DNA of 64,000 nucleotides from Candidatus Rifleibacterium amylolyticum (lineage in GTDB: Bacteria; Muiribacteriota; Ozemobacteria; Ozemobacterales; Ozemobacteraceae), in assembly GCA_009917695.1 (NCBI GenBank), contig JAACJG010000005.1:62001-126000 (forward strand), read 5' to 3'. The notes under the pieces are model-generated. The model saw only the letters and a program-made list of their open reading frames with translations, had not been told where the DNA came from and ran no database searches. The position numbers and the translations under genes are program-made. Shown here in pieces: positions 23,864 through 60,670 of this stretch; within the stretch, counting starts at the first letter, position 1, and every line of letters begins with the position of its first letter.

Positions 23864-24031
23864 AAAAGAAGCATTCCTTCAGAAAGCCGAAGCTTTTGAT
23901 AGAATGTTACTGGATCAAAACTTTGGACTACGGCGAGGCCTGAAGACGGGTTTGCTTTTTCGTAAGCTTGTGAGCGAAGCGAATCGCTGAAGAAAAAGCA
24001 TCCCGGCTGAAGGCCGAAGCTTTTGATAGAA
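23863..24031 (+). repeat. Intergenic repeat region with copy D of the foldable element
   Basis: Two related blocks (23863-23906 and 23991-24031) end in the same GCCGAAGCTTTTGATAGAA. Between and over the second lies a foldable element (23937-24015): GGCC (23937) with GGCC (24012), CGGG (23947) with CCCG (24002), and an inner GCTTTTTC/GAAAAAGC stem. The closing-stem layout, including CGGG-TTT on the left and AT-CCCG on the right, matches elements at 48540 and 60490. It ends about 58 bp before the next ATG. Confidence 0.6.
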
Positions 24032-24072
24032 ATGAGCTTTTGTGTGAAATTGAGGAGTTGTCGAGAATTGAT

Positions 24073-28651: not shown

Positions 28652-28764
28652 GTCATTCTGAGCAGAGCAGAGCGTAGTCGCAGAATCCATGTCTTTGCTG
28701 CAATTCTGGATCCTGCGACTTTCTTCTTCGCCAAGGCTTCGAAGAACAGGTCGCGCATGATGAC
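28652..28764. repeat. GTCATTCTG intergenic repeat, full copy
   Basis: A 113-bp block starting GTCATTCTG and ending GCATGATGAC, with an internal arm pair GTCGCAGAATCCA / TGGATCCTGCGAC (one mismatch) that forms a strong hairpin. A second full copy is at 62086-62167 and partial ones at 11834, 37989, 38792, 40781 and 60312. It lies after rsgA and may also terminate its transcript. Confidence 0.75.
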
Positions 28765-48539: not shown

Positions 48540-48741
48540 GGGCGTAGGCGGGTTTCTCAAAAGCGTAAGCTTGTGAGCCGAGCACTTTTGACTCAAAGAC
48601 TTCAGCAATCGAGAAGCAGATGAGGCGGTTTGCCAAAGGCAAAGGCCAGCTCTGAGCCAATCCTGAAGCGTTGAGCCCCTAAAGGGATCCGCAGATCTAA
48701 CGACTGAAGCCGTAAGATCTGCCTAATCCCGCCGAGAGCCC
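48540..48741 (+). ncRNA. Foldable intergenic element, copy A
   Basis: The ends pair: GGGC (48540) with GCCC (48738), and GGCGGG (48547) with CCCGCC (48728). After the left strand comes a hairpin CTCAAAAGC-GTAA-GCTTGTGAG with a GNRA-type loop; near the right end is GCAGATCT...AGATCTGC. It ends 64 bp before the ATG of the exported redoxin gene. The same closing layout occurs at 23937, 56201 and 60490. Transcription is not shown; it might instead be a mobile DNA repeat. Confidence 0.45.
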
Positions 48742-48805
48742 GGGTAAGAAATATAGAGTTGGAATAAATTTTTGAATAAGTTAAAAAAAATCAAAGGAGA
48801 CAAAT

Positions 48806-55992: not shown

Positions 55993-56200
55993 TCGCTCCT
56001 GTGTCAGTGTTACCGTGTTGGATTGCTGATTAAACGACATCCTGACAGGGAACAACGCCTCAAATCTGAACTCGTCTCTCACCAACAATCGTACTCAATC
56101 TATATAAAATACAGAAAACATATTAAAATCTAATTAAGCCGAACGCAAGAATTATTGCCAGTAAAAAAAGATTCAGTTACGGGTGGAATAATTATTGTGA
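55993..56200. other. Upstream region of the signalling operon
   Basis: About 200 bp, AT-rich around 56095-56165, which should carry the minus-strand promoter of the four-gene operon. No convincing operator was found. Confidence 0.4.
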
Positions 56201-56374
56201 GTGCGCAGACAGGGATCTCATAAGCGAAAACTTTTGCACAGGGATGTGCTTATGCCGATCTGCGCAGGATAGAGCAACTCGGCCGAGCCTGGCAATATTG
56301 ACGCAAAGCCATAGCTTTACAAATGAGCCTTCGTCCAGGGAGAGTTGTAGCGAATGAGATCCCGCCGAGAGCCC
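56201..56374 (+). ncRNA. Foldable intergenic element, copy B
   Basis: GGGATCTCA (56212) pairs perfectly with TGAGATCCC (56355). Inside are CATAAGC/GCTTATG closing a GCACA-GGGA-TGTGC hairpin, CCTG (56288) with CAGG (56336), GACG (56300) with CGTC (56332), and CAACTC (56275) with GAGTTG (56342). The right part, from GAGAGTTGTAGCGAATGAGAT on, is nearly identical to copy C at 60490. On the minus strand it would lie in the leader of the signalling operon. Strand and transcription are unknown. Confidence 0.45.
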
Positions 56375-56435
56375 GATTTTGAAAGCATTTCTTGTGAAAA
56401 GAGCATGAAAAAACCGGATGATACAATAACGAGCT

Positions 56436-60346: not shown

Positions 60347-60421
60347 GATGAAGAGTTATCCGCAGATTTCGCAGATTGATCGAAAGGGTTAAGCAGGCCG
60401 TAGACGACATGACCTGGAGAC
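60347..60421. repeat. Duplicated block, left copy
   Basis: A 75-bp sequence starting GATGAAGAGTTATCCGC and ending GACATGACCTGGAGAC, repeated at 61947-62021 with few differences. The right flank of the downstream copy (GATCGATGAA...TTAAGCTTCGTTTTAG) continues here only after the element at 60421-60670, showing that the element was inserted. Confidence 0.85.
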
Positions 60422-60670
60422 TAGTCCTCTGTCACATTTGAATTATGAGGTAGATTGGTAGAATTCACGCCTGGTGAAAAATCATACAAGGGCGCAGGCG
60501 GGTTTCTCAGGCGCGGAAACTTCGAGCCAGGCAACTTTGACGCATAGCTATAGCTATTAAACAATACTTGCGTCTGGTGAGAGTTGTAGCGAATGAGATT
60601 CCGCCGAAAGCCCGGCAAAAGCAGAGACTCTCAGATTGAATTCTTGAACTCTTATGTGACAGAGGACTAG
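60421..60670. mobile_element. MITE of 250 bp with perfect 17-bp inverted ends
   Basis: Ends CTAGTCCTCTGTCACAT (60421-60437) and ATGTGACAGAGGACTAG (60654-60670) are exact reverse complements. It has no gene. The related duplicated block at 61947-62062 lacks it, so the unoccupied site is visible at 62022-62023. A TA at each end would fit a TA target duplication as in IS630/Tc1-type elements, but the counterpart site reads AA. It carries the foldable element C. No transposase is in the window. Confidence 0.8.
60490..60613 (+). ncRNA. Foldable intergenic element, copy C, inside the MITE
   Basis: GGGC (60490) pairs with GCCC (60610) and GGCGG with CCGCC. Inside: CCA (60527) with TGG (60575), GACGCA (60539) with TGCGTC (60569), a TAGCTATAGCTA hairpin, and CAACT (60532) with AGTTG (60582). 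Against copy B, the third pair of the CC(T/A)G stem changes from T-A to A-T, a compensatory change. The MITE ends lie outside it, and copies A and B lack those ends. Confidence 0.5.

Follow-up and report, generated by a model that had tools for sequence, protein, structure and literature searches.

Dispersed Hairpin Repeats in the Window

The window, that is, the whole stretch of 64,000 nucleotides that was analyzed, belongs to the genome of a Candidatus Riflebacteria MAG (G000; 5.39 Mb, 35 contigs). An earlier note on this DNA described four sites, at 23937, 48540, 56201, and 60490, as sharing one architecture in the same orientation. For three of them, this description holds. The sites at 48540, 56201, and 60490 are copies of one hairpin repeat of ~125 nt, referred to here as the core repeat (Table 1), with both ends in common (GGGCGYAGGCGGG... 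and ...CCGCCGARAGCCCG) and an identical orientation. The right arm said to be common to 56201 and 60490 is present in the sequence, and so is the compensatory T-A/A-T change, which is seen as AAAGC..GCTTT at 56201 and as ATAGC..GCTAT at 60490. A blastn search with positions 60485–60620 revealed ~40 further copies in G000, with the best paralogue showing 95% identity. The covariance model R1, built on an alignment of 24 insert-free core copies (A1), identifies 55 strong places in this genome. Its E-values in the window are far beyond chance (1.6e-31 for 60490, 3.9e-10 for 56246–56375, and 1.5e-4 for 48540). Each core copy is one long imperfect hairpin whose ends are imperfect inverted repeats, and the RNA fold of the 48540 copy has a z-score of -3.3.

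The site at 23937 had to be rejected as a member of the core. R1 misses this site, which belongs to F2, a different, second dispersed hairpin family of ~90 nt with about 20 copies in the genome. What this copy has in common with the 48540 subtype is limited to an inner segment (CGTAAGCTTGTGAGC...GCGAATCGCTG). Intact F2 copies end in inverted repeats of the TATACAAAAGCTCATT type. A partial duplicate of the F2 right arm occupies positions 23868–23904, just upstream of the copy at 23935–24046. The window also contains further dispersed repeats of the GTCATTCTGCGCGAAGCGAAGTCGCAGAATCC and CCGCAGATTnCGCAGATT types, at 28652, 60312, 61909, and 62086.

Table 1. Repeat features located in the window.
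Feature	Position	Strand	Details
F2 hairpin, not a core copy	23935–24020	+	right terminal repeat AATGAGCTTTTGTGTG at 24031–24046
Core repeat, type-2 interior with inserted modules D and B	48540–48742	+	203 nt; R1
Module D, two small hairpins	48628–48663	+	inside the 48540 copy
Module B hairpin	48676–48725	+	19 genomic matches, nearly all at the same site inside core repeats
Core repeat, type-1 interior with module A	56201–56375	+	175 nt; R1
Module A, twin-hairpin GGA module	56232–56283	+	R2, E = 1.4e-15
Module A, hairpin 1	56236–56249		GCAC-AGGGAU-GUGC
Module A, hairpin 2	56255–56282		loop CAGGAU
Alpha terminal inverted repeat, left arm	60421–60444	+	CTAGTCCTCTGTCACATTTGAATT; 250-bp element around 60490
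Core repeat, type-1 interior, no inserts	60490–60614	+	125 nt; blastn, R1
Alpha terminal inverted repeat, right arm	60647–60670	-	250-bp element around 60490

Modular Architecture and Distribution

Core copies are modular, with a type-1 or a type-2 interior between identical ends. Module A is inserted after AAACTT/AAGCTT and module B ahead of the right arm. When its inserts are removed, the 48540 copy is the same as insert-free type-2 copies of 123 nt, such as L081. Module D recurs in the F2 copies L181 and L184 and in the GTCATTGCGAG-type hairpins L131 and L142. Modules A and B were considered as free mobile units and rejected as such: in G000, A is found solely and B almost solely in core repeats, but A-like modules occur in other families. 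Loci L101 and L107, which apparently differ by module A alone, were not retained as a gain/loss pair, with L101 lying at a contig end and possibly being an assembly variant.

Many copies, but not all, are surrounded by outer repeats of the alpha, beta, or F2 type. A feature overlooked in the earlier note is that the 60490 core lies within a larger element of 250 bp, which has inverted repeats of 24 bp of its own. These alpha repeats (CTAGTCCTCTGTCACAT), which often terminate in CTAG, enclose either the core (60421–60670) or a GTCATTGCGAG hairpin; the arms are the same and the centers are exchanged (loci L128–L144). Beta repeats (TGTAAAGATTCAGTT) enclose other copies, and the left flank of the 56201 copy, at 56170–56185, resembles a beta terminal repeat. 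No autonomous alpha element was found, and no inward pair of alpha repeats occurs at IS length.

Among 57 relatives and outgroups, R1 matches are confined to one genus. The number of copies per genome is 55 in G000, 28 in G002, 4 in both G001 and G005, and 0 in G003 and G004. The exact bipartite core pattern, searched in 84,980 GTDB genomes, matches solely Candidatus Riflebacteria MAGs, namely HGW-Riflebacteria-1 (G002), GWC2_50_8 (G001), and MM_PC_MetaG.mb.182 (G005), and a pattern scan of IMG/VR gave no match. Since the relatives derive from separate MAG projects, the core repeat is not an assembly artefact. A distribution limited to one lineage, with 0 to 55 copies per genome, points to a dispersed palindromic element, such as BOX, ERIC, or NEMIS, that is probably mobile, rather than to a conserved leader or riboswitch.

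Pairing, Strand, and Gene Context

The earlier note proposed a covariance model with a covariation analysis as a check and regarded a lack of covariation, or a random strand, as evidence against its proposal. In A1, 98.2% of cells pair, with double changes at eight pairs in 15 cells, and none of 500 shuffles reached the covariation score. Alternative arms replace the common ones (GGCAGGCTTCCCAA / TTGGGATCCTGCC, GCGTGCTTCTCAT / ATGAGATCACGCC, and GTGC / GCAC). Across the plus-strand structure of 41 type-1 copies, there are 70 G.T pairs vs. a single A.C; this excess stems from a few columns and is supportive rather than independent evidence (6 vs. 1 among mainly Watson–Crick pairs). The plus-strand fold is more stable than the minus-strand fold in 36 of these copies.

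The surroundings of the copies were examined with gene calls made by a script written for this analysis. No called gene is overlapped by 90 of 92 copies, and the copies are oriented with the flanking genes. In G000 alone, co-orientation with tandem genes is found for 30 of 35 copies (p = 2e-5), and in the other species for 12 of 17, which is not significant; both counts take in the 23937 copy. Orientation by GC skew or lagging strand was ruled out, as no correlation was observed (27/57). Because the arms covary, G.U pairs far outnumber A.C, and, of 51 copies flanked by tandem genes, 41 run in the gene direction, the pairing of the core is under selection on one defined strand and is kept by compensatory changes. 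Neither of the outcomes that the earlier note would have counted against its proposal was therefore obtained.

The position before a plus-strand gene, also pointed out earlier, is correct for the window, where such a gene follows 63 bp after the 48540 copy and 110 bp after the 60490 copy. It is not a genome-wide rule: of the downstream neighbors, 55 share the strand of the copy and 34 do not, whereas of the upstream neighbors, 65 do and 24 do not. No recurrent gene family and no recurrent transposase were found beside the copies. Coherent same-strand downstream genes, the mark of a leader or riboswitch, were likewise not found; the downstream genes are unrelated, and the suggestion of a leader is not sustained.

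At several orthologous sites of two species, an element is present in both or missing from one, with flanks too diverged for target duplication to be recognized. The orthologous intergenic region in G002 has no L030 copy, and its flanks do not align with single-base precision. The comparison of empty sites from species to species was abandoned because the intergenic DNA is too diverged; neither a target duplication nor a clean empty site was found in it. Loci L075 and L120, in an orthologous intergenic region of two species, carry different subfamilies in opposite orientation, which suggests a recurrent insertion site.

The Twin-GGA Module

The repeats form a new family, ordinary in kind, of modular hairpins that are dispersed in the genome. 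The unusual part of the family is the strongly covarying twin-GGA module, module A. In G000, it is present in no more than 11 of the roughly 55 core copies and thus cannot account for the core repeat. It also occurs, in inverse orientation, in some F2 copies. The model R2, trained exclusively on 15 core-embedded modules, also detects the F2 module, located on the opposite strand, with E-values of about 3e-4 to 2e-3, together with homologous modules in G001 and G004. The rebuilt model R3, applied to 40 Riflebacteria genomes, finds 24 modules in G000, 40 in G002, 19 in G005, 12 in G004, 6 in G001, and 0 in G003. Outside the genus, it finds two in G019, which represents a second genus of the family, and one weak match in G009. 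Modules outside the core have no orientation bias (4 vs. 5), and at some loci they are arranged in tandem (L112, L260, and L265). In G004, loci L193 and L201 are compact: three or four twin-GGA modules, alternating in strand, surround a hairpin that resembles module D.

An alignment of 58 distinct module copies from several repeat families (A5) has 95.1% of its cells paired, with 187 double-change cells vs. 48 after shuffling. Its covariation is 0.689, compared with 0.161 for shuffled alignments, and slid structures do not exceed 0.113; A5 was fitted to its model, so these absolute values lean upward. Individual hairpin-1 sequences nevertheless show the exchange of stems directly: GCAC/GUGC, GCCC/GGGC, GACC/GGUC, GGCC/GGCC, GCGCC/GGCGC, and GCUGAC/GUCAGC are all found. 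Stems carry 0.74 bits of information, with single columns down to 0.06 bits, vs. 1.29 bits at unpaired positions. The nearly fixed elements are CA.GGA in hairpin 1, the linker UUAUGC that joins the two hairpins, and CAGGAU in hairpin 2. Among 51 distinct hairpin-1 loops, 24 are CANGGANG, 11 are CAGGANG, and 13 have no GGA, and CAGGA occurs in 39 of 51 hairpin-2 loops. The distance between the two GGA loops is mostly 22–24 nt.

Relation to Known Systems

The statement that no named RNA family matches is borne out by Rfam, where no match exceeds the threshold. Strict and permissive searches gave nothing credible, and the TwoAYGGAY, CsrB, and RsmX/Y/Z models were unmatched. Like the core, the BOX elements of Streptococcus are intergenic, present in many copies, foldable as RNA, and equipped with optional hairpin modules between conserved ends (PMC3049150). 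They differ in sequence and phylum, and in the present repeats the modules are common to several unrelated families, one module having GGA loops. ERIC and NEMIS (Correia) elements are palindromes of about 107–155 bp with internal insertions at fixed sites; they are co-transcribed, and the effect of ERIC depends on orientation (PMC2229807). They do not match the core in sequence. QMITE1 and QMITE2 of Coxiella are MITEs that yield small RNAs, and QMITE2 lies for the most part in intergenic regions and 3'UTRs (PMC5896051). Their sequence is different, and the accessible part of that report describes no CsrA-type module (PMC5896051).

REP/REPIN elements with RAYT and the hairpins of the IS200/IS605 type are likewise strand-specific, intergenic, and multi-copy, and the type-2 core has GTAG before its palindrome, as they do. 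The core is much longer and is unlinked to the RAYT of the genome, which has its own GTAG repeat; for this reason, mobilization of the core by RAYT was rejected. At L162 (G000:C1:111277) and L164, there is a separate REP/RAYT system, in which GTAGGGAACGGTCGC palindromes flank a gene for a RAYT-like Y1 transposase. The core does not fall into the REP/RAYT class, defined by a GTAG-tagged palindrome of 20–40 nt and a RAYT, as the GTAGGGAACGGTCGC repeats of the L162 gene are without core ends. The properties of MITEs, i.e., a short length (about 100–300 bp), many copies, an intergenic location, and terminal inverted repeats, are all present. A cognate transposase with matching ends was not found in the genome; membership of the class does not strictly demand one, as the mobilizing IS may be lost or located in missing sequence.

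Module A resembles TwoAYGGAY RNA (RF01731) and the CsrB/RsmZ sRNAs in its twin hairpins with GGA loops. It differs in being embedded in mobile repeats instead of forming a free sRNA gene and in its hairpin-2 loop, CAGGAU. The twin GGA hairpins of TwoAYGGAY and Bacillaceae-1 were proposed in silico as CsrA ligands outside Gammaproteobacteria (PMC4333381), but the repeats fit the model of neither.

A Possible Role in CsrA Regulation

A CsrA site consists of an ANGGAN hexaloop closed by C-G or of a CsrB-type CAGGA(U/A/C)G, the SELEX consensus is RUACARGGAUGU, and sites are used in pairs 10–63 nt apart, with the best distances above 18 (PMC7652899). Module A conforms to the loop rule, with GGA in the loop, an ANGGAN hexaloop, and C-G closure, except for the 13 of 51 hairpin-1 loops noted above; most modules also conform to the pair distance. 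The loops (CANGGANG / CAGGAU) and their spacing agree with published dual CsrA sites. CsrA is encoded in five of the six genomes of the genus. The G000 protein has 88 aa and keeps L4 and R44 by position. Its gene, at L188 (G000:C6:277616), lies directly downstream of a fliW-like gene, whose product is read as FliW on the basis of its sequence.

The earlier note left a choice between a structured RNA and a mobile structured DNA, and the repeats have properties of both: they are dispersed and limited to one lineage, and they have a one-strand structure and are co-oriented with genes. In the proposed explanation, non-autonomous palindromic repeats of the MITE/BOX kind would have spread through the intergenic regions of one Riflebacteria genus, with copies assembled from exchangeable hairpin modules and sometimes placed inside further terminal repeats. 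The copies would be transcribed within neighboring mRNAs, mostly in 3'UTRs or between cistrons, and would fold there. The twin-GGA module would then recruit a CsrA dimer of the FliW–CsrA system to the transcript, and this recruitment might alter transcript stability or titrate CsrA. The part of this explanation that concerns the repeat and its single-strand structure is very likely, and CsrA binding is somewhat less likely than not; the explanation as a whole, from spread to folding and CsrA recruitment, is favored with some reserve.

The main rival holds that the structure is selected solely as single-stranded DNA, the substrate of an HUH or another structure-reading transposase or recombinase (IS200/IS605-, REP/RAYT-, or attC-like), with the RNA being incidental. 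The asymmetry between strands is expected equally for single-stranded DNA, modules are found after T-runs and on both strands within the arms of hairpins that belong to several repeat families, and both G000 and G002 have a Y1/RAYT-like gene. Nevertheless, the sole Y1 gene that G000 has is bordered by a GTAG repeat of its own, with neither core ends nor modules, and the copies are oriented according to genes rather than GC skew. In known cases of Y1 recognition, it is the stem sequence that is read, whereas the stems of the module vary freely and its loops are fixed. This rival is considered rather improbable. Another reading, also unlikely, is that of a selfish palindromic MITE with no cell function, whose orientation bias would come from a harmful reverse orientation, for example, a terminator- or promoter-like minus strand. 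The fixation of GGA loops amid stem turnover would be left unexplained by such an element, unless the transposition machinery needs the loops, even though the hallmarks of a mobile element, with beta- and F2-type terminal repeats and nesting, speak for it. Covariation and strand bias would also suit a cis-regulatory leader or a free-standing ncRNA with a conserved, riboswitch-like physiological role. This possibility is strongly disfavored and highly improbable, given copy numbers of 55, 28, 4, 4, 0, and 0 within a single genus of six genomes, the absence of copies elsewhere, the lack of a recurrent neighboring gene family and of an Rfam match, and downstream genes that are often on the opposite strand.

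Under the explanation based on MITE/BOX-like spread and CsrA recruitment, the mobile repeats of Riflebacteria could spread a twin-hairpin CsrA module, so that many transcripts gain sites or the copies act together as a distributed sponge for a CsrA that is otherwise controlled by FliW in this phylum. This more specific idea is somewhat doubtful. Even without CsrA, a covarying motif that hops between families and keeps its loops fixed while its stems change freely would need a dedicated reader, for which an RNA-binding protein and a structure-reading transposase are candidates. If the module binds CsrA, transposable repeats would rewire a global post-transcriptional regulator in an uncultured phylum by carrying its site, and the in silico proposal of CsrA-ligand RNAs beyond Gammaproteobacteria (PMC4333381) would gain support.
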